From Burkholderiales bacterium (GTDB lineage: Bacteria; Pseudomonadota; Gammaproteobacteria; Burkholderiales; Burkholderiaceae_C), in NCBI GenBank assembly GCA_947453625.1, contig CANGHK010000035.1, positions 1 to 53,505 of the forward strand: a DNA stretch of 53,505 nucleotides. The letters run 5' to 3'. Shown piece after piece: positions 788-13,628 of this stretch (positions within the stretch are counted from its first letter, which is position 1; each line of letters starts with the position of its first letter). The notes beneath the pieces were generated by a model. The model was not told the DNA's origin, searched no databases, and saw only the letters and a list, made by a program, of their open reading frames with translations. A program made the position numbers and the translations under genes.

Positions 788-1624
788 TCAATGCACCATC
801 AGCACGGGCAGCGTCATCGAGCGCAGCAGCGTGCGCGTGACACCGCCCAGCACCCATTCGCGCGCCCTTGTGTGGCCGTAACAGCCCATCACCAGCAGGT
901 CGGAGGCCAGGTCGCTGCAGCGCGACAGCAGCAGGTCGCCCATCTCGGCGGATGCCTCGCCGCAGGCGTGGGCAATGGCACTGATCCCGTGTCGCTGCAG
1001 GTAGGCCAGCAGTGCCACGCTGGCGTCGTCTGCCGAGCGGCCGGGCTCATGCCACCAGACGACGTCGACCTGCGCGGCGGCCTGCAGCAAGGGCAGGGCG
1101 GCGGCCACGGCGCGCGCCGACTCGCGGCTGGGCTTCCAGGCCACCAGCACCTTGCGCGCCGGCTGCGCGTCCACGCCGATGTAGGGCAGCACCAGCGTGG
1201 GCTTGCCGCTGTCCATCACGACCCATTCGACGAAGTCGGCGGGCACGCCCTGAGACGAAACCGACTCGGGCTCACGCTGGCCGAGCACCACCAGATCGGC
1301 GTAGAAGGCCTGTTCGACAAAGGCCGACAGCGATTCCTGCCGGCCCAGCTCTGACCACTGCAGCCGTGTCATGCCCGACGCCACGGCGCTGTCGAACAGG
1401 CCTTTGGCGTGGTTCCGTCGGGTGGCTTCCAGGTCGTCGAGCAAGGCGGCCGCCTCGTAGCCCGTGCCGAACCCGAGCGGGTAGAGCAGGTCGGCCGGCG
1501 TCGTGGCGTACAGCACCGACACCAGGCTGTCGTGCTGCGTGGCCCATTGGTGCGCCAATGTCAGCCGCGCCAGGCCCGTCGGAGACGCGTCGAGATGAAC
1601 CAGCAGGGTCTTGAGTGCGCTCAT
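788..1624 (-). CDS. tandem universal stress protein (UspA family)
   Basis: A 278-residue cytoplasmic protein with two UspA domains, about residues 1-145 and 150-278. The N-terminus (KTLLVHLDASP) has the first Usp strand. The second domain keeps the ATP-binding pattern in MGCYGHTRAREWVLGGVT followed by TLLRSMTLPVLMVH, typical of ATP-binding Usps; the matching loop in domain 1 is degenerate. Tandem Usps are associated with survival under low oxygen, starvation and stationary phase. The gene is divergent from the second GroEL gene, and the 180 bp between them carries two FNR-like palindromes, one spaced correctly for this gene. A GGAG ribosome site precedes ATG 1624. The downstream lipoyl-like gene is probably in the same transcript. 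Confidence 0.9.
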   Translation of the reverse strand: MSALKTLLVHLDASPTGLARLTLAHQWATQHDSLVSVLYATTPADLLYPLGFGTGYEAAALLDDLEATRRNHAKGLFDSAVASGMTRLQWSELGRQESLSAFVEQAFYADLVVLGQREPESVSSQGVPADFVEWVVMDSGKPTLVLPYIGVDAQPARKVLVAWKPSRESARAVAAALPLLQAAAQVDVVWWHEPGRSADDASVALLAYLQRHGISAIAHACGEASAEMGDLLLSRCSDLASDLLVMGCYGHTRAREWVLGGVTRTLLRSMTLPVLMVH

Positions 1625-1653
1625 GCCAGGGCTCCGGGTTTGTTGGACTGCCG

Positions 1654-1694
1654 ACGATAGGTGGCGGCGGCCGGCCCGTGTTGCGCAGCGTCAA
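1654..1694 (-). promoter_or_regulatory. candidate FNR/Anr-type promoter of the UspA gene
   Basis: The 14-mer TTGCGCAGCGTCAA at 1681-1694 fits the FNR-family pattern of TTG and CAA half-sites separated by 8. On the minus strand a -10-like TATCGT lies at 1659-1654. The box centre to -10 centre distance is 31 bp, which puts the predicted start near 1647 and the box at about -41, the class II activator position. The predicted leader is about 23 nt. Inference from pattern and spacing only. Confidence 0.5.
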
Positions 1695-1714
1695 CCGCGC
1701 TGAACGGCGCAGGT

Positions 1715-1728
1715 TTGAGCAGACTCAA
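1715..1728 (+). promoter_or_regulatory. FNR/Anr-like palindrome upstream of the second groEL
   Basis: TTGAGCAGACTCAA has perfect TTGA and TCAA half-sites and full dyad symmetry of the outer five bases on each side. It lies 78 bp before the groEL start. The -10 expected 31-32 bp downstream (around 1750-1756) is poor, so this box could instead serve as a second upstream site for the divergent UspA promoter. Confidence 0.4.
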
Positions 1729-1805
1729 TCCGCGCGCCGGGATAGCCGCCACGATGGCGCTGGTTCACCCGTGTTCCACGCTGTTGCCTGTTGGAGGCGA
1801 TGCCC

Positions 1806-3437
1806 ATGGCCGCCAGACACCTGATGTTCCACGACGAAGCGAGGGACAAGATCCGGCGCGGCGTCGACGCGCTGGCCGAGGCCGTCCGGGTCACGCTTGG
1901 ACCGCGTGGACGCACTGTCATCCTCGACCGCGAATTCGGCCCGCCGCAGATTGTCAATTCCGGCGTGCTGGTGGCCAAGGCGATCGAGCTGGAGGAGCGG
2001 TTCGAGAACATGGGCGCGCAGATGCTGCGCGAGGTGGCCTCGCGCACCAGCGAGAAGGCCGGCGACGGCACCACCACGGCCACCGTGCTGGCCCACGCGA
2101 TGATCCACGAGGGCCTGCGCTACCTGGCTGGCGGCATGAACCCGATGGACTTGAAGCGCGGCATCGAGCAGGCCATAGACGCGGTGGTGGCCGAGATTCA
2201 CCAGATGGCGCGGCCCTGCGGCAGCTCGCAGGAGATCGCCCATGTGGCCTCGATTTCGGCCAACAACGACCGCTCGATCGGCGAGTTGCTGGCGCGCGCG
2301 ATCGACCGCGTGGGGCGCGAAGGCGCGATCGCCATCGAGGACGGCTCGGGCCTGGTCAGCGAGCTCGAGGTGGTCGAGGGCCTGCAGTTCGACCGCGGCT
2401 TCCTGTCGCCCTATTTCATCAACAACACGGAGCGCCAGACCGCCGTGCTCGAGGACGCGTCCATCCTGCTCTGCGACAAGAAACTGTCGTCACTGCAGGA
2501 CTTGCTGCCGCTGCTCGAGCAGGTGGTCAAGGCCGGCCGGCCGCTGCTGGTGATCGCCGACGAGATCGACAGCGAGGCGCTGGCCACGCTGGTGATCAAC
2601 ACGATGCGCGGCACGCTCAAGACCTGCGCGGTCAAGTCGCCCAGCTTCGGCGATAGGCGCCACGCGCTGCTGCAGGACCTGGCACTGCTGACCGGCGGCC
2701 GGGTGGTCAGCGACGAGCTCGGGCTGAGTCTGGCCAAGGTCACGCTGGACGACCTGGGGCGCGCCAGGCGGGTGGAAGTGGGCAAGGACGAGACGACGCT
2801 GATCGGCGGCGGCGGCGCGCCGGCGGCTATCGCCGAGCGCATCCAGGGCATCCGCCGCGAGCGCGCCGCGGCCACCAGCGATTACGAGCGCGAGAAGCTC
2901 GACGAGCGCGCCGCCAAGCTGTCGGGCGGGGTGGCGCTGATCAAGGTCGGCGCGGCCACCGAGTCCGAGTTGAAGGAGCGCAAGATCCGCGTCGAAGACG
3001 CGTTGCACGCCACCCGGGCGGCGATCGAGGAGGGCATCGTGCCCGGCGGCGGTGTGGCGCTGCTGCGCGCCCGGCGCGTGCTGGGCGCGCTCAAGGGCGA
3101 GACCCTGGACCAGGACTCGGGCCTGCGCACCGTGGCGCGCGCGCTCGAGGAGCCGCTGCGCCAGATCGTGGCCAACGCCGGCGCTGAGCCGTCGGTGGTG
3201 CTGCACCACATCGCCGAGTCGACCGAGCCCGCCTTCGGCTACAACGCGGCGACGGGGGGCTATGGGGACTTGCTGCAGATGGGCGTGATCGATCCGGCCA
3301 AGGTCACCCGGCTGGCCTTGCAGAACGCCAGCTCGATTGCCGGCCTGATCCTGACCACCGACTGCCTGATCGCCAACGCGCCGCCGCCCAGGCCGGCCGC
3401 CGCGGGCCAGGGGTCGGGGATGGAGTCGACGCTGTGA
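1806..3437 (+). CDS. groEL: GroEL-type chaperonin, second (stress) copy
   Basis: A 543-residue Hsp60 chaperonin. The equatorial domain shows [11 protein letters not shown] and the ATPase loop GDGTTTATV with Asp87; the second ATPase Asp lies in [22 protein letters not shown]. The C-terminus ends [10 protein letters not shown] rather than in the usual Gly-Gly-Met repeat, and no groES lies upstream, so this is not the main groESL operon. The ATG at 1806 is chosen because GGAGG at 1793-1797 is 8 bp away; the ATG at 1800 is too close and the upstream TTG at 1791 overlaps the ribosome site. It is followed by a phosphoribosyltransferase gene 76 bp downstream and diverges from a UspA gene. Probably a stress-specific chaperonin, perhaps induced at low oxygen. 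Confidence 0.95.
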
Positions 3438-3513
3438 GGGCCCACGACTTGGCGGCTGCGCCCGGCGCCGGCGTCGCTTTGGCCACGATGGCCATGACCC
3501 GCAGGGCTGCGCC

Positions 3514-4191
3514 ATGACCCGGCGCTTTGCCAACCGGCGCGAAGCCGGGCAGGCCCTGGCCGTCCGCCTGGTGACGTGCGATCTGCCGCCGCCGGTGGTG
3601 GTGCTGGCGCTGCCGCGCGGCGGCGTGCCGATAGGCGCGCTGGTGGCCCGCGCGCTGGGCGCGCCGCTGGACCTGCTGCTGGTGCGCAAGATAGGCGCGC
3701 CCTGGCAGCCCGAACTGGCGGTGGCGGCGCTGGTCGATGGCGACCCGCCTGACCTGGTCGACGACGAGCAGATCCAGGCCGCGTTGGGCATAGACCCCGC
3801 CTATGTCCGCCGGCAGGCCGCGCAGGAGTTGCGCGAGATCGAGCGGCGCCGCGGCGTCTACCTGCGGGGCCGCGCGCCGGTGCCGGTCGAGGGTGCCACC
3901 GTGGTGGTCGTCGATGACGGCATCGCCACCGGCACTACCGTGCGCGCCGCGCTCAAGGCCCTGCGGCGCCGGCATCCGGCGCGCCTGGTGCTGGCCACGC
4001 CGGTGGCGCCGCGCGACACGCTGCAGCAGTTGCGTGCCGAGGTGGACGAGATCGTCTGCCTGGCCACGCCTTCGCCGTTCGATGCCATAGGCCAGCATTA
4101 CGACGATTTTCACCAGGTCGGCGACGACGAGGTGCTGGCCGCGCTCGATGCCTGCGGCCCGACGCAGGGCGCTGGCGACAAGCCGGCCTGA
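3514..4191 (+). CDS. phosphoribosyltransferase-domain protein
   Basis: A 225-residue type I phosphoribosyltransferase fold protein. The PRPP-binding loop is VVVVDDGIATGTT at about residues 130-142, with the two acidic residues and the following TG(T)T that hold the ribose-5-phosphate. An N-terminal LPRGGVPIGALVA segment is the usual second loop. The C-terminal part (LATPSPFDAIGQHYDDFHQV) is typical of the stand-alone family often found beside UspA and erythromycin-esterase-like genes; the true substrate of that family is not established. It lies downstream of the second groEL on the same strand and may be co-transcribed. A PRPP-synthase-like gene lies about 6.6 kb away and could supply PRPP. 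Confidence 0.85.
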   Translation: MTRRFANRREAGQALAVRLVTCDLPPPVVVLALPRGGVPIGALVARALGAPLDLLLVRKIGAPWQPELAVAALVDGDPPDLVDDEQIQAALGIDPAYVRRQAAQELREIERRRGVYLRGRAPVPVEGATVVVVDDGIATGTTVRAALKALRRRHPARLVLATPVAPRDTLQQLRAEVDEIVCLATPSPFDAIGQHYDDFHQVGDDEVLAALDACGPTQGAGDKPA

Positions 4192-4279
4192 GCCGTATCA
4201 GCCCCGGGCAGCCGGACGACCGCGTAGCCTCAATGCTGCTAGGCTCGCGGGCTGCCTGGCTCATGGATCGAACCGACCT

Positions 4280-5185
4280 ATGCCTGTTTTCCGCCGTTTG
4301 CCGCGTCTGCTGCTGGTCCTGGCCGCTGGGGGCCTGTCGACTATCGCCCTGGCCCAGGCCTCACCGGTGTCACCGGCGGTCGACTCGGTCTGCGCTTTCG
4401 CGGCGCGGGGCATTCCGGCGCGGCCTGCGCAAGCGCGCGGCGGCAACGCCTTCGCCGACAGCCTGGCCGGCCTGACCGAGCCCGAGCGCGACCGCGCGAT
4501 CCGCGACGAGTTGCTGTCGGGCAACCTGCCGCCGGCCTTGCGCCGTGTCTCGCCAGCCACCGTCACCGGACAAGGGCCGGACGGGACGCCGGTGCAACTG
4601 GTGTTGTGCGTGCTGGCGGACTACCTGGCCGTCGGTGCCGACCTCGACGCGCTGCGGGTGCCTATGGGCCTGGACAGCGCGCGGGCGGTGGCGGCGGGAT
4701 TCGGCTTCACCCTGCCGACCCGGCGCATGGTCGACCTGATCTACCGCCAGGCGACGGTGCAGTTGCTGCCCCAACCGCTGCCGGCCGGTGAGGCGATGCG
4801 CTCGACCGCCACCTACCGCCAGCACCAGGCCTTGGTGGAACAGCAGCGCGCGGCGGTCGGCGCCCTGCCCGGCGCGCTGACCGCGGGCCACAAGAAGGAC
4901 CTGGTGATCAGCGAACGGCTGTGGCGCCAGCCCGACCGGGTGGCGATCTACGGTTGGCACCGCCGCGCCGACGCGCCCATCCAGCCGCTGTCGACGGTGC
5001 ATGGTGCGCGCTACGCCGACTACAGCCACGGCGTGCGCCTGGTCAGCGAGACGGTGCTGGTCGACGGCCTGCCGCGCTCGATCTTCGACCTGCTGGCCGA
5101 CCCGCAGTGGTCGTCGCTGCTCAGCGACGAGGGTCCGCTGCCGCACCTGCTGGCCTGGATGCAGCGCGGCCTCGCGTTGCGCTGA
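4280..5185 (+). CDS. exported protein of unknown function
   Basis: A 301-residue protein with a clear Sec signal peptide (RRLPRLLLVLAAGGLSTIALAQA, cleavage after AQA). I do not recognise a family in the mature part. It contains an Ala/Arg-rich stretch, a region reading LLSGNLPPALRRVSPAT, and a C-terminal half with YGWHRRADAPIQPLSTVHGARYAD and a SETVLVDG segment. SUMF1-cluster neighbours sometimes include proteins with this YGWH layout, but I cannot name one. ATG 4280 is chosen because it gives the signal peptide directly; the frame is open upstream. It is convergent with the SUMF1-like gene (38 bp between stops) and follows the phosphoribosyltransferase gene by 88 bp. Confidence 0.7.
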   Translation: MPVFRRLPRLLLVLAAGGLSTIALAQASPVSPAVDSVCAFAARGIPARPAQARGGNAFADSLAGLTEPERDRAIRDELLSGNLPPALRRVSPATVTGQGPDGTPVQLVLCVLADYLAVGADLDALRVPMGLDSARAVAAGFGFTLPTRRMVDLIYRQATVQLLPQPLPAGEAMRSTATYRQHQALVEQQRAAVGALPGALTAGHKKDLVISERLWRQPDRVAIYGWHRRADAPIQPLSTVHGARYADYSHGVRLVSETVLVDGLPRSIFDLLADPQWSSLLSDEGPLPHLLAWMQRGLALR

Positions 5186-5223
5186 ACTGGCTTGGGCCGC
5201 GCCTGGGCGCAGTCTGCGCGCCG

Positions 5224-6279
5224 TCAACGCTCGGGCAGGGTCTTGCAGCAGCGGAACCCGAGGTGGTAGTTGGCGTGGCTGGCCGGGTCCATCACCGCGC
5301 TGCCATGCCAGTAGGGTGCGCGCCAGCGGCACCAGTCCTCATGCGCGCGGTAGCGGTCGAAGATGAACCAGCTGCCCTTCATCTCGGTGACACCGAGGCC
5401 GCGGCTGCCCTGGCTGGCCATCTGCGACCGGTCCAGCGGCAGGTTCATGTGCTCGGCGGCGTTGCCGTGCAGGTCGTACACGCCCAGCGCGCTGCGGCAG
5501 CCGGGGAAGGCGCCGGCCGGGTAGGTGTTCGAGCCGCAGGCGCTCCAGCCGCCACCGCCGCAGCCCTCGGTCTTGCTGCTGTCGGCCGCGCAGAGGCCGG
5601 GGCGGTATTGCGGGCCGTAGCTCCAGCGCTTGTCGCCCGCATGGGCCCGGTTGTGGACCTCGCGCAGCCGGCGCTGCGCGGCGCCGGCCGGCAGCCCGGC
5701 GATCAGGTCGAAGCGGTAGTCGGGCGGCAGCAGCCGGCCTTCGCAAGCGCCTTCCCATTCGTGCGCGTCGCACAGGCGCTTGCCCACCGCCTCGCAGATC
5801 TGTGCCGCCTCGCGTGCCCGCACCCAGACCACCGGGTAGGCGCAGGGCAGGTCGGGAAACTCGAACTGGTCGATGCAGGCGCGGGCGTCCTCGGGGCGCT
5901 GGGTCTGCGGGTCGTAGAGCGGCGCCATGTGCGGGCCGCCGCACAGCCGCTCGAAGCGCGCGCTGTCGCCGGGCGCCGGCGCGGCCTGGCGCACCGCCAG
6001 GCATTGCTCGGGTGTCATCGGGTGGCGGGCGATGGCCGGGTTGCCCTGGCCGATGAAGCCCGAGCGGGTGAAGATCGCGCGCAGCCGCTGCATCGCCGCG
6101 TCGTCCAGGCCCTGCACCTGCTGCAACTGGCGCAGCAGCGCGTCGTTGCGGCGGGCCAGCGTGTCGGGCTGCGCGGCCAATGGGTGCGGCAGTCCGGGCA
6201 GCCCCGCCAGTGCCAGCAGCACGAGCGCACGCGTCCACCACGACAGGCGCCGGCGGTGCCGTCGGGGCTGGGTTTTCAT
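5224..6279 (-). CDS. exported SUMF1/formylglycine-generating-enzyme-like protein
   Basis: A 351-residue protein with an N-terminal signal (WTRALVLLALAGLPGLPHPLAAQ). From about residue 120 it carries the SUMF1 fold: PCAYPVVWVRAREAAQICEA, KRLCDAHEWEGACEG, VYDLHGNAAEHMNL and, at the end, HLGFRCC. This family includes formylglycine-generating enzymes, EgtB-like sulfoxide synthases and non-catalytic C-type-lectin-like proteins. The classical catalytic cysteine pair cannot be assigned by eye, so its reaction is unknown. Its ATG overlaps the stop of the upstream gene by 4 bp (ATGA), so it is the last gene of a translationally coupled four-gene operon. Export places it in the periplasm or envelope. 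Confidence 0.85.
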   Translation of the reverse strand: MKTQPRRHRRRLSWWTRALVLLALAGLPGLPHPLAAQPDTLARRNDALLRQLQQVQGLDDAAMQRLRAIFTRSGFIGQGNPAIARHPMTPEQCLAVRQAAPAPGDSARFERLCGGPHMAPLYDPQTQRPEDARACIDQFEFPDLPCAYPVVWVRAREAAQICEAVGKRLCDAHEWEGACEGRLLPPDYRFDLIAGLPAGAAQRRLREVHNRAHAGDKRWSYGPQYRPGLCAADSSKTEGCGGGGWSACGSNTYPAGAFPGCRSALGVYDLHGNAAEHMNLPLDRSQMASQGSRGLGVTEMKGSWFIFDRYRAHEDWCRWRAPYWHGSAVMDPASHANYHLGFRCCKTLPER

Positions 6280-8057
6280 CGGTGTGGGGCCTTGGTCAGC
6301 AGGTAGAAGAAATCACGGTCGTCGGCATAGCCCAGGAAGCGCGGCACCAGCGCCCCGCCGGCCTGCTTGTCGAGCGCGGCCATGCCGCTGACCAGGTGCT
6401 CGACGCCGATCTGCGCGCCGCTGCGGGGGTAGAGCGCCAGATAGGTGTGCTCCAGCGCGTTCATATCCAGGTGCATCGCGTAGCGGCAGGCGTAGGCCTG
6501 GAACACGCGCGCCATCGCCCGCGGCGTGGCGGTCGAGAAGTAGCCGTAGACCAGGAAGCGCCGGCTTTCGGCCTCGACCAGGCAGGCGCCGGCGCGCAGC
6601 GTGCGCAGCCGCTCATCGGCCGAGCCCGACCAGTTGCCCGCGCCCCACTGGTCGATCAGCGCACCCGGCCGGCCGGTGCCCCCGCCGGGGTCGCGCTCGA
6701 GCAGTGGCACGCCGTTCTGCCGGGCGTGGCGCAGCCTGCCCAGCCCGCCGGCGTCGTCCTCGGAGCGCCAGGTGGTCATGCCGACCTCGCCGTCCTGACC
6801 CACGTACAGCGTGGCCAGGCCGGGTTGCAGCCGGCTGAACACCACGCCCTGCTCGATGAAGCCGTAGTGGCTGCCGCGGTTCACGGTGGCCAGCGCGCCG
6901 TGGCGGAACGCGCCGTGCTCGCGCTTGAAGCCGCCGGTGAAGGTGGCCACCGCGCGCGCCTGCAGCGCCGGGGCGAGCTGGCCGGTGCGCACCAGCGGCG
7001 CGGCGCTGGCGATGCCGTCGGGCCCGGGCAGTGCCGGTGGGCGCAGCGCGGGTGGCACGCGGGCCGACCAGCCCAGCCGCGGGTGCTCGGTGCCCAGCGC
7101 GAAGCCCAGCTCGAAGGCCGACAGGTCGAAGGCCACCAGCAGGGCCAGCGCCTCGCCCTCGACCGGGTCTAGCGCCAGCGGCCTTGCGGCGGCGCCGGCC
7201 CCTGCCGCCAGCGCCCGCGGCAGCGCCGCGCTGAGGTAGATGCCGTCCAGCCCGGCCAGCGCCCGCCACTGGCCCAGCCGCAGCGGCGCGACGGCGTCGG
7301 CCAAGCCCAGGCCCAGCGCGTCGCTCGCCACCGCACGCGGCGTTGCGCCGTCGGCCAGCCGGGCGGGCGGCGGCGCGCCGGTGGGCGGGTCCCTGCCCGG
7401 GTAGTCGCCCGGCTTGTCGGCCGGTCGGGCGCGTTGCGCGAAAGCGTCCTGCAGGAACTCGCGGCGCACGAAACCGATCACTTGCTCGCCGCGCCAGACA
7501 TGGTCGCGCAGCAGCTCGGTGCCGGCCTCCAGCGTGCTGCGGTGGCCTGCCACCGCGTTGCGCAGGTAGAGCCGGCCACCGCACAGCGGCGCGTAGGCCA
7601 GCGGGCTGCGGCGCGCGGCGGCCAGCGCGGGGCCCGGCCACAGCGGGCAGGGCGCTGCGCCCTCGCCGGGCAAGTCGCTGCCTGGGGTTGCGCTGCCCAG
7701 CGTCAGCGTGCCCGGCCGTGTCGGGTCCAGCGCCACGCGCTGCGCCGCGGGATCGGCGTTCTCGAGGTGGTATTGCGTGGCCGCGGTCTCGCCGGGGCCG
7801 CGCAGCGTCAGCAGGAACCAGGCGTTGACGGCCGGCTGCAGGGCGGTCAGCGTCAGGCTGCCGCGCTGGCGGCCGGGGCCGGGCAGGTCGACCTGCTGGC
7901 TGCGCCGGGCCGCTTGCAGGTCGACCAGGGTCAGGGGCGGCGCGCTGGCCGTCGCGACGCCCTGCGGCGCCGTGGTTTGGCCCAGGCTGGCGCCTGCCAG
8001 CAGCAGCATGCCGCCGGCCGGGGCCAGGCGCAGGCGTTGGCGATGTCGGGCGGTCAT
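6276..8057 (-). CDS. exported phosphodiester-glycosidase-like (NAGPA/DUF2233-type) protein
   Basis: A 593-residue protein with signal peptide (LAPAGGMLLLAGASLGQT). The C-terminal half resembles the NAGPA/DUF2233 fold: a GGFKREHGAF strand with TVNRGSHYGFIEQG, a GEVGMTTW loop, RRFLVYGYFSTATPRAMARVF, then YAMHLDMNALEHTYLALY where family members have an LDGGGS-type segment. That segment lacks the usual double Gly and Ser, so the activity may differ. The N-terminal part (about 250 residues) is unassigned and probably a beta-rich domain. ATG 8057 overlaps the stop of the HAD-UbiA gene by 4 bp and its own stop overlaps the SUMF1-like gene by 4 bp. It probably acts on an envelope glycan or phosphodiester made by the upstream enzymes. 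Confidence 0.65.
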   Translation of the reverse strand: MTARHRQRLRLAPAGGMLLLAGASLGQTTAPQGVATASAPPLTLVDLQAARRSQQVDLPGPGRQRGSLTLTALQPAVNAWFLLTLRGPGETAATQYHLENADPAAQRVALDPTRPGTLTLGSATPGSDLPGEGAAPCPLWPGPALAAARRSPLAYAPLCGGRLYLRNAVAGHRSTLEAGTELLRDHVWRGEQVIGFVRREFLQDAFAQRARPADKPGDYPGRDPPTGAPPPARLADGATPRAVASDALGLGLADAVAPLRLGQWRALAGLDGIYLSAALPRALAAGAGAAARPLALDPVEGEALALLVAFDLSAFELGFALGTEHPRLGWSARVPPALRPPALPGPDGIASAAPLVRTGQLAPALQARAVATFTGGFKREHGAFRHGALATVNRGSHYGFIEQGVVFSRLQPGLATLYVGQDGEVGMTTWRSEDDAGGLGRLRHARQNGVPLLERDPGGGTGRPGALIDQWGAGNWSGSADERLRTLRAGACLVEAESRRFLVYGYFSTATPRAMARVFQAYACRYAMHLDMNALEHTYLALYPRSGAQIGVEHLVSGMAALDKQAGGALVPRFLGYADDRDFFYLLTKAPHR

Positions 8058-9487
8058 GGCGTCAGCATCAGCAGGGCCAGCGTCAGCAGGCCGAAGACCC
8101 GGCTCAGCGGGTCGCGCAGCGCGAACGAGACCGGGTCGTCGTGGATGCCGCCGCGGTGCGCCGTCAGCCACAGGTTGCCGGTCCAGTACAGCAGCAGCTC
8201 GCAGACGCACCACACCGGCCAGCGGGCAAAGCCCGAGGGCTCGACCACCGGGTAGAGTGCCAGCACCGCCACCGCCACACCGCCCGAGGCGATGCCCAGC
8301 CCGGCGATCAGCGTCGCGTCGCTGTTGCGGTAGGCGCGTACGCGCAGGTCGGGGCCGTCGTCGACGCGCCGGCTCACCAGCTCGGCATAGCGTTTGAGCA
8401 GGGCCAGACCGAAGAACAGCGCCATGCTGCCGACCAAAAGCCAGGCCGACACCTCGACGCCGGCGGCCAGCGCGCCGGCGCCTATGCGCAGCGTGTAGCC
8501 CAGCGCCAGCGCGAAGGCGTCGACCAGTGCCAAATCCTTCAGGCCCAGCGAGTACGCCAGCATCAGCAGCGTGTAGGCCGCCAGCGCACCGGTCAGCGTG
8601 GGTGCCAGCCAGGCGCTCAGGCCGGCGGCCGCCAGCCACAGCAGGGGCACCAGCGCCAGCGCCGGGGCGATCCGCAGTTGCCCGGCGGCCAGCGCGCGCC
8701 GCCGCTTGTGCGGGTGGCGGCGGTCGGCGTCCAGGTCGAGCAGGTCGTTGAGCAGGTAGACGCCCGAGGCGGCCAGGCTGAAGCAGACCACGCCGACCCC
8801 CGTGCGCGCCAGCATCGCGCCGTCGTGCAGGCGGTGCGCGGCCAGCAGCGGCACCAGCAGCAGCAGGTTCTTCAGCCAGTGCTGCACCCGCATCGCGCCC
8901 AGCCAGGTGCTCAGCCCAGCCGGCAGGGGGTCGAAGACGCGCTCGACCGGTGTCAGCGCGCGCACCTGCCTGGCCAGCCGAGGCGGCGTGGCCACCAGCC
9001 AGGCGCGCCGCGCGGCCGACCAGACCGGCAGGTCGGCGCTGCCATTGCCCACGTAGTCGAAGCCGCGCTGGCCGAAGGTGGCGACCAGCCGGTCGCGCTT
9101 GGCGTCGGCGCTCAGGTTGTGCCGGCCGTCGCTGGCCAGCACGGCGTCGAACAGGCCCAACTCGGCGGCCACCGCCTCGGCGATAGACGCATCGGCGCCG
9201 GTGGCCAGCACCAGGCGGCGGCCGCGCCGGCGCTCCTCTTGCAACTGCGCCAGCAGGTCGGCGCGCCAGGGCAGGGTTTGCAGGGCGAGCCGGGTGCGCT
9301 CGGCCACCGCCTGCTTCAGCCGCGCCCGGCCCTGCCAGATCCAGCGCGGCAGGCCGGCCAGGGCCAGTGGGCGCTGCCGCAACAGCGTCAGCAGGCCCTC
9401 GTGCAAGGTGTCGGTGCGCAGCAGCGTGCCGTCCAGGTCGACGACCAGCGGCACCGCGTCGGCGCGCTGCACGGCGTCGGCCGCCAT
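8054..9487 (-). CDS. HAD-phosphatase / UbiA-prenyltransferase fusion (polyprenyl-phosphoribose synthase-like)
   Basis: A 477-residue two-domain membrane protein. Residues 1-200 are a HAD hydrolase: nucleophile motif VVDLDGTLLRTD, LVLATGAD as motif II and FDYVGNGSADLPVW as motif IV. Residues 205-477 are a polytopic UbiA prenyltransferase with the first Asp-rich motif YLLNDLLDLDADRRHPHKRR. The DRxHPxKRR form is that of decaprenyl-phosphate phosphoribosyltransferases, which attach ribose-5-phosphate from PRPP to a polyprenyl phosphate. The fused phosphatase could then remove the 5-phosphate. The ATG at 9487 shares one base with the epimerase stop (TGATG). Inference: first steps of a lipid-linked pentose pathway. 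A different prenyl acceptor cannot be excluded. Confidence 0.85.
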   Translation of the reverse strand: MAADAVQRADAVPLVVDLDGTLLRTDTLHEGLLTLLRQRPLALAGLPRWIWQGRARLKQAVAERTRLALQTLPWRADLLAQLQEERRRGRRLVLATGADASIAEAVAAELGLFDAVLASDGRHNLSADAKRDRLVATFGQRGFDYVGNGSADLPVWSAARRAWLVATPPRLARQVRALTPVERVFDPLPAGLSTWLGAMRVQHWLKNLLLLVPLLAAHRLHDGAMLARTGVGVVCFSLAASGVYLLNDLLDLDADRRHPHKRRRALAAGQLRIAPALALVPLLWLAAAGLSAWLAPTLTGALAAYTLLMLAYSLGLKDLALVDAFALALGYTLRIGAGALAAGVEVSAWLLVGSMALFFGLALLKRYAELVSRRVDDGPDLRVRAYRNSDATLIAGLGIASGGVAVAVLALYPVVEPSGFARWPVWCVCELLLYWTGNLWLTAHRGGIHDDPVSFALRDPLSRVFGLLTLALLMLTP

Positions 9488-10530
9488 CAGAGCAGCCACT
9501 TGGCCAGGCCCAGCACGCCGCGCCGCCAGGGCACGCGGTGCGACACGCCCTGCCGGTGCGCGATCTCGTCGCGGTGCTGCAGGTACCAGTCGAAGTTGCG
9601 CAGCAGCGCGTCGCGGTTGCTGTGGCGCGGCGTGAAGCCCAGCCGGTCGCGCAGCCGGTCTATGCTGACCACGCTGGTGCGCGTCGCGGTCTCGACGATC
9701 CACGGGTACAGCGGTGACAGCTCCCAGGCCGCCAGGCGCCGCAGCAGCCACAGCGCGGGACGCTCGGGCAGGCAGGTCACCCGCCGGCCATGGCCGGCCC
9801 GGTCGAGCACGGCCTGGAAACCCTCGCGCAGGCTGCCGAACTGCGCCGCGCCGACGTTGAAGGTGTCGTCCACCTGCGCCGCCGGCAGCGTCATGCAGCA
9901 GGCTATCACCTCGCAGAGGTCGGCCACGTCGAGCAGCTGGTAGGGCTTGTCGCCGCGGCCCAGCACCGCGAAGCCATGGCCGTCGCAGGCAAAGTCGTAC
10001 AGCAGTTCGAAGGCGCCCAGGCGCTCGGGGCCGACGAAGCTCTTGGGCCGCAGGATGCTGACGCACAGGCCAGGCGCGCGCGCCGCGGCGCACAGCCGCT
10101 CGGCCCCGATCTTGGCCTGGCCGTAGGGGCCGACACCGTGCAGCGCATCGTCCTCGTGGATCGGGTGGTGGTCGGGGATGCCGTAGACGGCGGTCGACGA
10201 GATGAAGATGAAGCGCGCCACGCCGTGGCGGCGCGCGGCCTGCAGCAGCAATCGGGTGCCTTCGACGGTGGTGGAGGTGATCTCGGCGCTTGGCGCCAGC
10301 GGCAGCGCGGCCGCGGCATGGACGACGGTGTGCACACCGGCCATCGCACGGTCGACCTGGTCGGCATCGCGGATGTCGCCGCGCACAGCGTCGATTCGGT
10401 CGCGCTCGGTCGCATCGAAGGGCGCGATGTCCAGCGAGCGCAGCACCTCGCCCCGCGCCAGCAGGTGGCGCACCAGGTTGACACCGAGAAAGCCGGCACC
10501 GCCGGTGATCAGTCGCAGGGGAGGGGTCAT
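9487..10530 (-). CDS. extended-SDR NAD-dependent epimerase/dehydratase
   Basis: A 347-residue extended short-chain dehydrogenase/reductase. The NAD-binding GGAGFLG motif is at residues 10-16, the SSTAVYG strand carries the catalytic Ser/Thr, and the catalytic pair is in PYGQAKIGAE (Tyr and Lys four apart). Family members oxidise, reduce or epimerise nucleotide sugars or related substrates. It is the first gene of the operon with the HAD-UbiA fusion and two exported proteins, so a sugar epimerisation linked to the UbiA product is likely; the mycobacterial analogue epimerises the 2-OH of polyprenyl-phosphoryl ribose by two enzymes, which this does not match one to one. ATG 10530 is preceded by the 240-bp divergent region shared with the PRPP-synthase-like gene. 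Confidence 0.85.
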   Translation of the reverse strand: MTPPLRLITGGAGFLGVNLVRHLLARGEVLRSLDIAPFDATERDRIDAVRGDIRDADQVDRAMAGVHTVVHAAAALPLAPSAEITSTTVEGTRLLLQAARRHGVARFIFISSTAVYGIPDHHPIHEDDALHGVGPYGQAKIGAERLCAAARAPGLCVSILRPKSFVGPERLGAFELLYDFACDGHGFAVLGRGDKPYQLLDVADLCEVIACCMTLPAAQVDDTFNVGAAQFGSLREGFQAVLDRAGHGRRVTCLPERPALWLLRRLAAWELSPLYPWIVETATRTSVVSIDRLRDRLGFTPRHSNRDALLRNFDWYLQHRDEIAHRQGVSHRVPWRRGVLGLAKWLL

Positions 10531-10676
10531 GGCGCTCAGTGCGAATCGGGGTGAACCTGCGCAGTGGCCGGTTGCCGCAACGCCCCATGCGAACCTCGGT
10601 GGCAAGACGCGGCGGCCACGCGCACTGCGCGACCTCTGTCCCGGTGTTGATTGGGCCTGCCGCTGGCCGCGCCGCG

Positions 10677-10718
10677 TTGCGCACGCTCAAGCGGGGCCTT
10701 GTCCGGTGGTGCTGGAAT
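10677..10718 (+). promoter_or_regulatory. candidate FNR/Anr-type promoter of the PRPP-synthase-like gene
   Basis: TTGCGCACGCTCAA at 10677-10690 is followed by a -10-like TGGAAT at 10713-10718. The centre-to-centre distance is 32 bp, equal to that seen at other boxes in this region, and predicts a start near 10725, 47 nt before the gene. The 240-bp region is also the only place for a promoter of the divergent epimerase operon; I see no clear one for that direction. Confidence 0.45.
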
Positions 10719-10771
10719 CGAGGTTGTGGCGGGCTGTTCCGCCGCGCGTTGCAGGGTTGATGGAGCCGACG

Positions 10772-11734
10772 ATGCTGATCTTTGCGCTGGACCGCCATGA
10801 CCGGGCGCTTGCGCGGGCCGTGGCCGAAGACCTCGACAACGACCTCTCGCCGCACGAGGACCGCGGCTTCGAGGACGGCGAGGACAAGCTGCGCCCGCTG
10901 GTCGACCCGAGGGGGTCCGACGTCTATGTGCTGATGGGGCTGCACGGCGGGCCCGACAGCAGCCCGCACGACAAGCTGTGCCGCTTGCTGTTCTTCATCG
11001 CCACGCTGCGCGACCACGGCGCCGCGCGGGTGACGGCGGTGTTGCCCTACATGGCCTTTGCCCGCAAGGACCGCCAGACCAAGGCATTCGACCCGGTGAG
11101 CCAGCGCTACCTGGCCCAACTCTTCGAGGCAGTGGGCACGGCGCAGGTGATCAGCTTCGAGGTGCACAACATGGCTGCGATGCAGAACGCCTTCCGCTGC
11201 CCTACGCAGCACCTGCCGGTGCATGCGGCCTTCGCCGAGTTGGCGGTCGAGTTGCAATCGGCCGGCCCGGTGGTGGTGGCCTCGCCTGACCCGGGCGGCA
11301 TCAAGCGCGCCCAACTCTGGCAGGAGGATCTGGCCCAGCGGCTGAAGCGGCCGGTCGGCCTGGCCTTGCTCGACAAGCGCCGCAGCGAGGGCCGCAGCGA
11401 CGGCGCCCATGCGGTGAGTGGCGAGTTGCGCGACTCGGTGGTGCTGCTGGTCGACGACCTGATAGCCACCGGCAGCACGCTGCAACGCGCCGCCGTGGCC
11501 TTGCGCGCCAGCGGCGCCCGGCGCGTGCTGGCCTGCGCCGCGCACGGCCTGTTCGTGTCGCCGGCGGCCGACCTGCTGGCCGACCCGGCGATAGACGAGG
11601 TGTTGGTGACCGACAGCGTGCCCGGGTTCCGCGTGCCCGAGGCCGGTGCGCTGCGCGACAAATTGCGCGTTCTGTCCTGCGTGCCGCTGCTGTCGGCGGC
11701 GGTGCGCGACAGCCACGCCGCCTGGATACGCTGA
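10772..11734 (+). CDS. ribose-phosphate pyrophosphokinase-like enzyme (PRPP synthase)
   Basis: A 320-residue two-domain PRPP synthase homologue. It has FARKDRQTKAFDPVS in place of the usual YARQDR segment, a SPDPGGIKRAQ loop, the flexible loop DKRRSEGR carrying Lys and Arg, and the PRPP loop VVLLVDDLIATGSTL. It is divergent from the main biosynthetic Prs and belongs with the stress-associated class. Product PRPP could feed the adjacent UbiA-type phosphoribosyltransferase and the PRTase-domain protein. ATG 10772 has GGAG 6 bp upstream; an in-frame ATG at 10760 is an alternative. Not in an operon: upstream is the divergent epimerase, downstream a convergent kinase-like gene 7 bp away. Confidence 0.85.
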   Translation: MLIFALDRHDRALARAVAEDLDNDLSPHEDRGFEDGEDKLRPLVDPRGSDVYVLMGLHGGPDSSPHDKLCRLLFFIATLRDHGAARVTAVLPYMAFARKDRQTKAFDPVSQRYLAQLFEAVGTAQVISFEVHNMAAMQNAFRCPTQHLPVHAAFAELAVELQSAGPVVVASPDPGGIKRAQLWQEDLAQRLKRPVGLALLDKRRSEGRSDGAHAVSGELRDSVVLLVDDLIATGSTLQRAAVALRASGARRVLACAAHGLFVSPAADLLADPAIDEVLVTDSVPGFRVPEAGALRDKLRVLSCVPLLSAAVRDSHAAWIR

Positions 11735-11741
11735 CGCTGAA

Positions 11742-12887
11742 TCAGGGCCGGTCCGGCTGCGGTGGAATGGCCGGCGGATCCCGGCCAGCGTTGCCAGGCT
11801 GCGGGCCAAGCGACAAGGCGATGTAACGCCGGCCCAGCGCCAGCCAATGCGCCGGCCAGGTGGGCTGGGCGTCGAGCAGGTGGGCCACGGCCAGCCTGGC
11901 CCGCAGCAGCGCGCGCCCGGCACGGTAGATCTGCAGCAGCGCCGGGTCGGGCAGGTCGTCCAGCCGTTCGCCGCAGCATGCCAGCAGGCGCTGGCCGGCC
12001 CAGGCCGCGCCCAGGCGCTCGCATTCCAGCGCCAGCGCCACCAACTCCTCGAACGGATCGACCTGGCGCAAGCCGTCGTTGAAGGCCAGGGCGTCGATCA
12101 CCACCGGCGGCTCGACCAGGCAGACATGCTCGGGCCGCAGGTCGCCGTGGCCGTCGACGATGCGGTGCTGGCGCACCCGCTGGCGCAGCAACTCGGCGTG
12201 CTGTTCGATTGCGGCGTCCAGGCGGTCGAGTGCCGGCGCGGCCTCGGCCAGGCCGAAGCGCCCGGCGCTCAGGACTTGCCGGTTGAGCGCCTGCTCGTGC
12301 CGATGGCGGGCCAGCAGCGCCGCCTCGTCGACCGGGGCCGGCAGGGCCTGCTGGTAGAAGCGCGACAGCGTCAGCGCCAGCGCGTCCACCTGGGCCGGCT
12401 GCAGGCGCGCGTCGGCGATCAGGCGGTCGAGCATGCGGTCGGCGGGCAGGCGCCGCATCTGCACCAGCCAGTCCACCGTCTGGCCGGGGGCCGGCAACGC
12501 CGTCTCGGGCAGCAGCGACCAATGGCCCTGGTCACGCTGCACCGCCAGCAGACCTAGGTAGACGTCGGGCGCCAGGCGTCGGTTCACGCGCAACTCGGCA
12601 CGCCCGTCGTGCTCGCGCGCGGCCAGCGTGCGGCAGTCGAACAGCGGCGGGTAGCAGACCGGCTTCTTCAGCTTGAGAGCCTGGTGCGCGTCCAGCACCA
12701 CCCAGGACATGTGGGTTTCGATCAGCTCGACCGTGCCCGCATCCGGCGCATGGGCCTGCGGCGACAGCAGGAAGCGCAGCGTCGCCGCGCTGTCGCTGGC
12801 GGGCTCGCCGGGGCGCTCCGGCGCGAGCGTGGCCGGCAAGGTGTCCGGTCCAGGCGCGGGTGATCGGGCTATCGGGTGCGGGTGCAA
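11742..12887 (-). CDS. COG2187 aminoglycoside-phosphotransferase-like protein
   Basis: About 381 residues with a protein-kinase-like (APH) fold. HMSWVVLDAHQALKLKKPV carries the nucleotide-binding lysine region, DGHGDLRPEHVCL is the catalytic loop with Asp, and VVIDALAFND is the metal-binding DFG equivalent. Many COG2187 proteins have a second AAA P-loop domain at the C-terminus; none is present here, so this is the kinase-like half only. The native substrate is unknown. I favour a TTG start at 12887 because AGGAG lies 8 bp before it and no ATG downstream retains the N-terminal region; the frame stays open up to an ATG at 12956. The stop is 7 bp from the convergent PRPP-synthase-like gene. Confidence 0.75.
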   Translation of the reverse strand: MHPHPIARSPAPGPDTLPATLAPERPGEPASDSAATLRFLLSPQAHAPDAGTVELIETHMSWVVLDAHQALKLKKPVCYPPLFDCRTLAAREHDGRAELRVNRRLAPDVYLGLLAVQRDQGHWSLLPETALPAPGQTVDWLVQMRRLPADRMLDRLIADARLQPAQVDALALTLSRFYQQALPAPVDEAALLARHRHEQALNRQVLSAGRFGLAEAAPALDRLDAAIEQHAELLRQRVRQHRIVDGHGDLRPEHVCLVEPPVVIDALAFNDGLRQVDPFEELVALALECERLGAAWAGQRLLACCGERLDDLPDPALLQIYRAGRALLRARLAVAHLLDAQPTWPAHWLALGRRYIALSLGPQPGNAGRDPPAIPPQPDRP

Positions 12888-13089
12888 TGCCGTTTCTCCT
12901 GGATGGGTCAGGGCAGGATGCCGCTTCGGCCTGCCACAGGCATTGCGCGTGCTCACTGCGCGGCGCCGCCTTCGGGCACGATGCGCTTGCCCGCGATGCT
13001 TGAAACATCGCCGTCAGCGCGGGCCGATTGACCCCGCGCACCGGCATGGTCGTCTGGCTTGGGGTTTCGTGCTTCCTGCCGACAGCAGC

Positions 13090-13130
13090 TTGCGCCCAGT
13101 CAATGGGCGGTCCGCGGCATGGCCTAGATT
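13090..13130 (+). promoter_or_regulatory. candidate FNR/Anr-type promoter of the host-attachment-family gene
   Basis: TTGCGCCCAGTCAA at 13090-13103 has a -10-like TAGATT at 13125-13130. The centre distance is 31 bp, so the box falls at about -41 from a start near 13137. The 294 bp between the COG2187 gene and the next gene otherwise shows no coding or structured element. Confidence 0.45.
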
Positions 13131-13181
13131 GACAGTTGGGTGTTGGGCTTCGATGAACCGCAAGCAAGCGAGGGATGTCGC

Positions 13182-13628
13182 ATGAAGAACTGGGTGGTGG
13201 TGGCCAATGCCGCAAAGGCCAAGGTGCTCGAAGAAACCGAGCACAGCGGCAAGTATCTGCACCGGGCCGACCTGGTGCATCCCAGTAGCCGCTTGAAGGG
13301 CATTGAGTTGGGCACTGACCGGCCCGGCCATGTGGTGAGTCCCGGCTTCGGCCCGGGCAGTGCGGCCTACCCGCCGCGCACCGATGTCAGGGAGCGCGAG
13401 CATGAGCACTTTGCGCGTGAAGTGGCCACCCTGCTGAACGACGGCGTGGCCGCCGGGCAGTGTGCCGGGATCGTGCTGGTGGCGTCCAACCCCTTCCTCG
13501 GGTGTTTGAAGGCGCAGCTCAGCGAGCAGGCGGAAAAGCGGCTTTTGCGCACCGTGCCCAGTGATTATTTCGGCTTGAGTGATGCCGAGCTGGCCCAGCG
13601 CATCGGCGGCGCGGCCGGCTGCGAATGA
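13182..13628 (+). CDS. host attachment family protein (PF10116)
   Basis: A 148-residue protein matching the family named for a host-attachment protein of rhizobia/agrobacteria. It begins MKNWVVVANAAKAKVLEE, has the DREREHEHFAREVATLLN-like helix (here DVREREHEHFAREVA), a VLVASNPFLGCLKAQLS strand-helix, and ends in a basic EKRLLRTVPSDYFGL segment. The fold looks eRF1/VLRF1-like; the molecular role is not established, and the family name need not describe its role here. An AGGGA ribosome site lies 7 bp before ATG 13182. Its FNR-like promoter and its place among Usp and GroEL genes suggest a stress protein. Confidence 0.8.
   Translation: MKNWVVVANAAKAKVLEETEHSGKYLHRADLVHPSSRLKGIELGTDRPGHVVSPGFGPGSAAYPPRTDVREREHEHFAREVATLLNDGVAAGQCAGIVLVASNPFLGCLKAQLSEQAEKRLLRTVPSDYFGLSDAELAQRIGGAAGCE

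Follow-up and report, generated by a model that had tools for sequence, protein, structure and literature searches.

The locus described here raises the question of how a sugar carried on a membrane lipid could be used outside the inner membrane when no membrane glycosyltransferase is encoded beside the enzymes that make it. It lies in a stretch of 53,505 nucleotides, here called the window, at positions 1 to 53,505 of contig CANGHK010000035.1 in the Burkholderiales bacterium assembly GCA_947453625.1. Four overlapping genes encode an epimerase of the SDR type, a fusion of a HAD phosphatase with a UbiA-type transferase (HAD-UbiA), and two putatively exported proteins, one of 593 amino acids (aa) and one related to SUMF1. 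A fifth conserved gene, X, is convergent (tail to tail) with the SUMF1-like gene. By a route already known elsewhere, the operon probably builds a pentose on a lipid of the membrane. Tentatively, with confidence a little short of even, it is read here as a version of a widespread cassette in which polyprenyl-phosphate-pentofuranose would be made and then used outside the inner membrane without a C-type glycosyltransferase (GT-C) of its own.

Conservation of the gene set

A wide scan, in which each species was represented by one genome, yielded 76 loci, most of them from metagenome-assembled genomes. Nine (L100–L108) shared the glycosidase domain alone, at 26–30% identity, and were left out, so that 67 loci were kept, many of them cut by contig ends. 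The record titles of the 76 loci named Beta-, Gamma-, Alpha- and Deltaproteobacteria, Oligoflexales, Acidobacteria, Hydrogenedentes and others; cultured environmental carriers include Azohydromonas australica DSM 1124 (L049) and Rhodovulum steppense DSM 21153 (L078). Partner genes at the 67 loci were the SUMF1-like gene (52), X (48), HAD-UbiA (33), SDR (26) and a phosphoribosyl pyrophosphate (PRPP) synthase (11). No description of this gene set was found in open PubMed Central papers. A reading of the window made earlier from its sequence alone, hereafter the sequence-only reading, had named lack of a conserved neighbourhood beforehand as a possible refutation. The check was run on the 67 loci and did not refute it. 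X was missed in that reading, leaving its four-gene set incomplete.

In the window, the junctions are TGATG at 9489–9485 and ATGA at 8057–8054 and 6279–6276. These junctions, the strands and the coordinates of the four genes were all found as the sequence-only reading had claimed. All 49 same-strand pairs of the 593-aa and SUMF1-like genes were no more than 300 bases apart, and 41 of them overlapped by 4 bases. For HAD-UbiA and the 593-aa gene, 24 of 29 same-strand pairs were within 300 bases and 15 overlapped by 4 bases; for SDR and HAD-UbiA, 16 of 17 pairs were within 300 bases (distances in relatives use script-chosen starts). Because the same 4-base overlaps recur in relatives, the overlaps of the window exceed chance. 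The earlier claim that the exported pair is part of the system is supported. The SUMF1-like gene and X were convergent at 32 loci and in tandem at three. Gene order differed between loci. With U for HAD-UbiA, N for the 593-aa gene, F for the SUMF1-like gene, S for SDR, and 1 and 2 for DprE1 and DprE2, it was U N F X S at L088, X N F U S at L060 and U 1 2 N F X at L056 and L061. The set has therefore been kept through rearrangement.

Among close kin the cassette is rare. Queries with the 593-aa and SUMF1-like proteins matched only the window's own genome among 60 relatives, and the 593-aa query again matched it alone among 399 genomes of the order, with at most three candidates scored per genome. 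Burkholderiales-titled records were nonetheless among the loci of the wide scan.

HAD-UbiA was also searched in 39 genomes bearing the 593-aa gene (40 of the 67 loci), mostly ones without an adjoining HAD-UbiA; L046, L058, L060, L064, L077 and L080 have one. Matches at E ≤ 1e-10 were found in 35 of the 39; they spanned both halves in 19 genomes and were partial in 16. The same query matched 59 of 398 genomes drawn from the phylum (the window's included), 41 over both halves, a rough contrast, as the larger draw was searched shallower at first look and the taxa differ. DprE1 lay near HAD-UbiA at 11 of 20 such loci (L139, L140, L141, L143, L144, L145, L151, L152, L154, L156 and L157).

In the 398-genome draw, the X profile (at most five candidates scored per genome) gave seven matches, the window's own and six of family f95. 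HAD-UbiA was present in all seven X-bearing genomes, against 59 of 398 overall. Among the 12 f95 genomes with HAD-UbiA, the 593-aa gene occurred in six of six with X and in none of six without it. Cassette genes were clustered with HAD-UbiA, GtrA, DprE1 and DprE2 in four of the six f95 genomes with X. In one of these clusters, L201, an unbroken stretch of seven genes comprises the 593-aa gene (3889–5634), the SUMF1-like gene (5631–6662) and, on the opposite strand, X, DprE2, DprE1, GtrA and HAD-UbiA (6727–12388), with no glycosyltransferase within it. A compact cluster of HAD-UbiA, GtrA, DprE1 and DprE2 was seen at L139, L140, L141, L143, L145, L154, L196 and L199–L202. Judged by its genes, it apparently amounts to a complete polyprenyl-phospho-arabinose supply with flippase.

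Proposed donor synthesis and epimerisation

HAD-UbiA scored 538.6 bits on NF006088, which has a curated cut-off of 351. The model is named merely ‘UbiA family prenyltransferase’, and the function as polyprenyl-phosphate phosphoribosyltransferase (PPPRS) is taken from PMC11127046. Next best were decaprenyl-phosphate phosphoribosyltransferase models with 117–139 bits, under their cut-offs, whereas the remaining UbiA-type models listed gave 18–37 bits. PDB matches at E ≤ 0.1 were Rv3806c structures alone (8j8j, E 9.2e-25). The motif NDLLDLDADRRHPHKRR, which the sequence-only reading had pointed out, is present in the UbiA half. Alignment to Rv3806c showed that 10 of 11 Mg/PRPP-site residues are kept (R22, K28, Y70, N73, D77, K87, R90, Y138, K143 and Y157), with Met in place of Q135 (residue roles per PMC10994848). 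Each of the ten is kept in 27–29 of the 29 cassette HAD-UbiA rows. The predicted kinship of the UbiA half with PRPP-type phosphoribosyltransferases, proposed earlier, is supported by these results. Membership of the UbiA superfamily would also fit an aromatic prenyltransferase acting, for example, on a quinone head group, but this is hardly credible in view of the profile scores, the kept PRPP-site residues with their Lys/Arg cluster, and four further UbiA-family genes in the window's genome.

The position of Gln135, a ribose contact in Rv3806c, corresponds to residue 309 of the window protein and is variable, with M in 19, T in 8 and S in 2 of the 29 cassette rows. All 39 rows of the ‘other’ HAD-UbiA group have Thr there, and Met is found in none of four DprE-type cassette rows.

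This architecture is known from Citrobacter youngae O1/O2, whose three-component pentofuranose system is encoded by ORF12–ORF15 (PMC11127046). ORF15, a HAD(PRP)-UbiA fusion, formed farnesyl-phospho-ribofuranose from PRPP when assayed, and the SDR ORF13 was shown by a mutant and nuclear magnetic resonance to set xylofuranose (Xylf) versus ribofuranose (PMC11127046). Citrobacter and the window, the latter known from its genes alone, are alike in the HAD(PRP)-UbiA synthase, the SDR epimerase and a PRPP-derived lipid-linked pentofuranose. By the DxDGT motif, the nucleophilic Asp of ORF15 (D18) corresponds to D17 of the window protein, and its column holds Asp in 27 of 29 cassette rows, with one gap and one T. 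This agrees with a phosphatase residing in the same polypeptide as the synthase, as had been suggested. The UbiA half would move ribose-5-phosphate from PRPP onto polyprenyl phosphate inside the cell, and the HAD half would strip the 5-phosphate. The route drawn in the sequence-only reading is sound but not new: PMC11127046 already reports a fused synthase and HAD phosphatase with an SDR epimerase acting after it.

The window SDR exceeded the cut-off of none of the 25 NCBIfam models shown, and homologues with 61–72% identity were present at 26 of the 67 loci. DprE1 and DprE2, the known epimerase pair for the polyprenyl-phospho-pentose type of lipid, were found at six of the 67 loci each; SDR and DprE1 were together at none. 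At L056 and L061 the two genes stand between HAD-UbiA and the 593-aa and SUMF1-like genes. The flavin adenine dinucleotide (FAD) protein of L061 had DprE1 as its nearest PDB match (E 2.6e-62), and the L061 proteins gave strong yet sub-cut-off scores on the NCBIfam models of the same names (DprE1 330.5 against 500; DprE2 180.9 against 250). Because DprE1 and DprE2 occupy the place of SDR in some relatives, the earlier proposal that SDR acts next, on lipid-linked ribofuranose after the synthase and phosphatase, is well supported. SDR, or DprE1 with DprE2 in other lineages, would epimerise the lipid-borne ribofuranose to a xylose- or arabinose-type sugar. By analogy, the pentose may be Xylf with SDR and arabinofuranose with DprE1/DprE2.

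Many nucleotide-sugar epimerase/dehydratase models match the SDR below cut-off, and at L040, L043, L050 and L053 it adjoins the 593-aa gene with no HAD-UbiA between. It might accordingly work on a nucleotide sugar or another metabolite and merely adjoin HAD-UbiA. Given that DprE1 and DprE2 stand in for it elsewhere, never beside it, and that the Citrobacter SDR near a HAD-UbiA gene sets the pentose (PMC11127046), such a role is very doubtful.

The mycobacterial decaprenyl-phospho-arabinose route (Rv3806c, Rv3807c, DprE1 and DprE2) shares the UbiA-type PRPP transferase, and relatives of its DprE1 and DprE2 occur in other cassette lineages. It differs from the window in that the window has a fused phosphatase of the HAD kind, to which Rv3807c is unrelated (PMC11127046), and an SDR as epimerase. 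No arabinosyltransferase gene was seen in the cassette.

Putatively exported proteins and the possible transfer step

The predicted structure of the 593-aa protein (built from 61 sequences, pLDDT 88.5) matched DUF2233/NAGPA structures (3ohg, 6pki and relatives) at residues 230–590, far above the next rows. Residues ~50–160 form a beta-rich N-terminal part. PF09992 matched 8 of 61 aligned members weakly (best E 6.8e-4) and the distant relative L108 with 26.1 against a cut-off of 25. The fold is held in common with NAGPA/DUF2233 phosphodiester glycosidases, from which the protein differs in its extra N-terminal part, its own set of invariant residues, the missing Pfam match and its coupling to a polyprenyl-phospho-pentose pathway. 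The proteins of L100–L108, from myxococcal-type records, are long, reading as 670–826 aa (a contig end truncates one of them). Their middle part resembles the cassette glycosidase-fold domain, and the extra C-terminal sequence looks partly repeated.

The SUMF1-like protein shares the PF03781 domain with the formylglycine-generating enzyme (FGE)/SUMF1 family and is strongly conserved, with a mean column identity of 60%. Its best PDB profile match was the paralogue SUMF2 (E 0.0026), with full FGE chains at 0.014 and weaker. The conserved C317 pairs with the FGE motif in a weak profile alignment, and no second Cys is aligned. Of the cysteine pair active in FGE, at most one appears to be matched, and the family seems to be without the other.

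The X model (46 sequences, pLDDT 88.8) had no Foldseek match at E ≤ 0.001, and VIA scores were middling, mostly to FGE/C-type-lectin chains. Many invariant polar residues, among them H182, K206, D207, H241, D247 and H250, look like an active or binding site. At L200 (8747–10285) and L201 (6727–8259), X reads as 510–512 aa, and its conserved part is preceded by a hydrophobic stretch at the N-terminus and a linker rich in Pro. The Oligoflexus-type loci L071, L076 and L095 show two X genes in one locus, around the 593-aa gene, and a SUMF1-like gene was not found there. A hydrophobic N-terminal stretch was present in 40 of 59 sequences of the 593-aa protein, 46 of 50 of the SUMF1-like protein and 28 of 46 of X, yet 9 of 28 SDR sequences had one too. 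Export of all three is graded as likely only, because this measure is crude and the starts are uncertain.

Twenty-two recurring families were listed around the 67 loci, with no GT-C or flippase recognised among them. Open reading frames (ORFs) with at least seven predicted helices within 6 kilobases, HAD-UbiA aside, occurred at 10 of the 67 loci (11 ORFs with differing starts, not typed singly). Because no recurring glycosyltransferase was seen with the exported proteins, one of these may itself carry out the transfer. The polyprenyl-phospho-pentose linkage is a sugar phosphodiester bond. The modelled NAGPA-fold protein is the best candidate, since enzymes with its fold release phosphodiester-linked sugars (PMC12419801) and its gene is coupled to the maker of a sugar-1-phosphodiester lipid. 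In light of this candidacy, the sequence-only reading may understate the role of the exported pair by having it modify the product. After a flippase, GtrA in some lineages, had turned the lipid over, the periplasmic NAGPA-fold protein would attack the sugar-1-phosphodiester and hand the pentose to an acceptor as a transglycosidase. The SUMF1-like protein and X would bind, position or further modify the acceptor or product.

A classic three-component system would differ in that a GT-C encoded elsewhere transfers the pentose, while the exported trio is limited to trimming, editing or recognising the completed glycan, and the NAGPA-fold protein is a hydrolase. The synthase half is of this kind. 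The Citrobacter system employs a MATE flippase together with a GT-C transferase, GT136 (PMC11127046). Neither is in the window cassette, where the synthase has the NAGPA-fold, SUMF1-like and X proteins as exported companions. Of the parts of a three-component system, a synthase with phosphatase and an epimerase are present in the window, and no GT-C is found in the locus. Other HAD-UbiA genes do adjoin such partners: in the window's own genus, outside cassettes, a PMT_2 gene at L023 (L026 just below cut-off) and a Polysacc_synt gene, of flippase type, at L027, and in the same order a PMT_2 gene at L028. The window's genome has two PMT_2 genes on other contigs. Each of them adjoins its own GtrA domain and family-2 synthase (the genome has two GtrA matches), so both probably have donors of their own. 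In a HAD-UbiA tree made by a quick method, a single branch (SH-aLRT 93, not starred) holds 25 of the 29 cassette rows, L056 and L061 together with most SDR loci; L064, L074, L076 and L080 are placed elsewhere, and the own-genus proteins from outside cassettes are in other branches. With no recurring GT-C seen near the 67 cassette loci, nor any within L201, transfer by a distant GT-C appears rather unlikely.

Hydrolysis alone is a further alternative. The NAGPA-fold protein would then cleave polyprenyl-phospho-pentose in the periplasm, freeing pentose and recycling polyprenyl phosphate for turnover or signalling, with the SUMF1-like protein and X as regulators. The fold match is compatible with this, and NAGPA itself is described as a hydrolase (PMC12419801). 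Transfer is preferred because building and then destroying one lipid would be wasteful. Nor does hydrolysis account for the joint retention of three exported families, two of which have genes that overlap by 4 bases, and it is considered improbable.

Several observations weigh against a cassette that works without a GT-C. The absence of a GT-C applies to a few kilobases around loci that are often cut by contig ends, with rough gene calls, and the two PMT_2 genes of the genome are potential transferases. A GtrA query found none at the 67 cassette loci, where small flippases other than GtrA were not sought; in the separate-cluster and f95 set, 11 of the 29 loci gave a match. The 593-aa gene was without any partner at 9 of 67 loci. 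A HAD-UbiA match was lacking in 4 of the 39 genomes bearing it, and most of the 16 partial matches covered the UbiA half only. The window's 593-aa protein matched no Pfam family, so that its relation to NAGPA is one of fold. HAD-UbiA is frequent throughout family f95, which supplies 12 of the 59 matches, and part of the co-occurrence of X and HAD-UbiA is thus shared descent.

Gene set, conservation, residues and folds are read from the sequences, and from these we infer each chemical step in this organism. The most conjectural is that the NAGPA-fold protein would act on lipid-linked pentose and transfer rather than hydrolyse. With more doubt than the cassette reading as a whole, it is possible that this protein, with the SUMF1-like protein and X, represents a hitherto unrecognised class of glycosyltransferases that depend on polyprenyl phosphosugars. 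It would be a soluble transglycosidase of the periplasm, with a phosphodiester-glycosidase fold, that would replace the membrane GT-C and be fed by exchangeable epimerase modules (SDR or DprE1/DprE2).

Operon layout and outlook

The gene models are collected in the table. The family assignments of the sequence-only reading were right in outline (PF01370; PF12710 with PF01040; PF03781). The PRPP-synthase-like gene is divergent from the operon. It had been proposed as the PRPP supplier; the gene is real, but with a homologue at just 11 of 67 loci it is an optional neighbour. Its start was set at an ATG (10760), and the TIGR01251 score was taken on the reading from 10748.

Table. Features of the cassette and its neighbour in the window
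Feature	Coordinates	Strand	Evidence
SDR, 347 aa, extended NAD-dependent epimerase family	9487–10530	−	PF01370, E 1.5e-35; TGGAGFLG and YGQAK present
HAD-UbiA fusion, 477 aa	8054–9487	−	NF006088; PF01040 and PF12710 above cut-off; Rv3806c match
Putatively exported 593-aa protein	6276–8057	−	NAGPA/DUF2233 phosphodiester-glycosidase fold at residues 230–590
Putatively exported SUMF1-like protein (FGE-sulfatase domain), 351 aa	5224–6279	−	PF03781, 33.2 bits (cut-off 23.3); hydrophobic N-terminus
X, 301 aa, signal-like start, no named family	4280–5185	+	conserved partner in relatives' loci
Ribose-phosphate diphosphokinase-like (PRPP synthase) gene	10760–11734	+	TIGR01251, 193.9 bits (cut-off 113)

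The flanks (788–4191 and 10760–13628) are of stress type, with a universal stress protein, a chaperonin (PF00118), a phosphoribosyltransferase, the PRPP synthase and Host_attach/baeRF. Phosphoribosyltransferase or PRPP-synthase homologues are also near the cassette at L033, L036 and L039, which may point to a shared island.

To our knowledge, where the use of polyprenyl-monophosphate sugars beyond the membrane has been characterised, it proceeds via GT-C proteins. The cassette retains the enzymes of donor synthesis and, in one family, a flippase, but a NAGPA-fold protein and its two companions stand in the place expected of a GT-C. SDR and DprE1/DprE2 appear as its interchangeable modules. It gives three exported families of unassigned function a likely context and opens the question of whether a sugar-1-phosphodiester glycosidase fold can act as a lipid-dependent transferase, hinting at a new way to use lipid-bound sugars outside the inner membrane.

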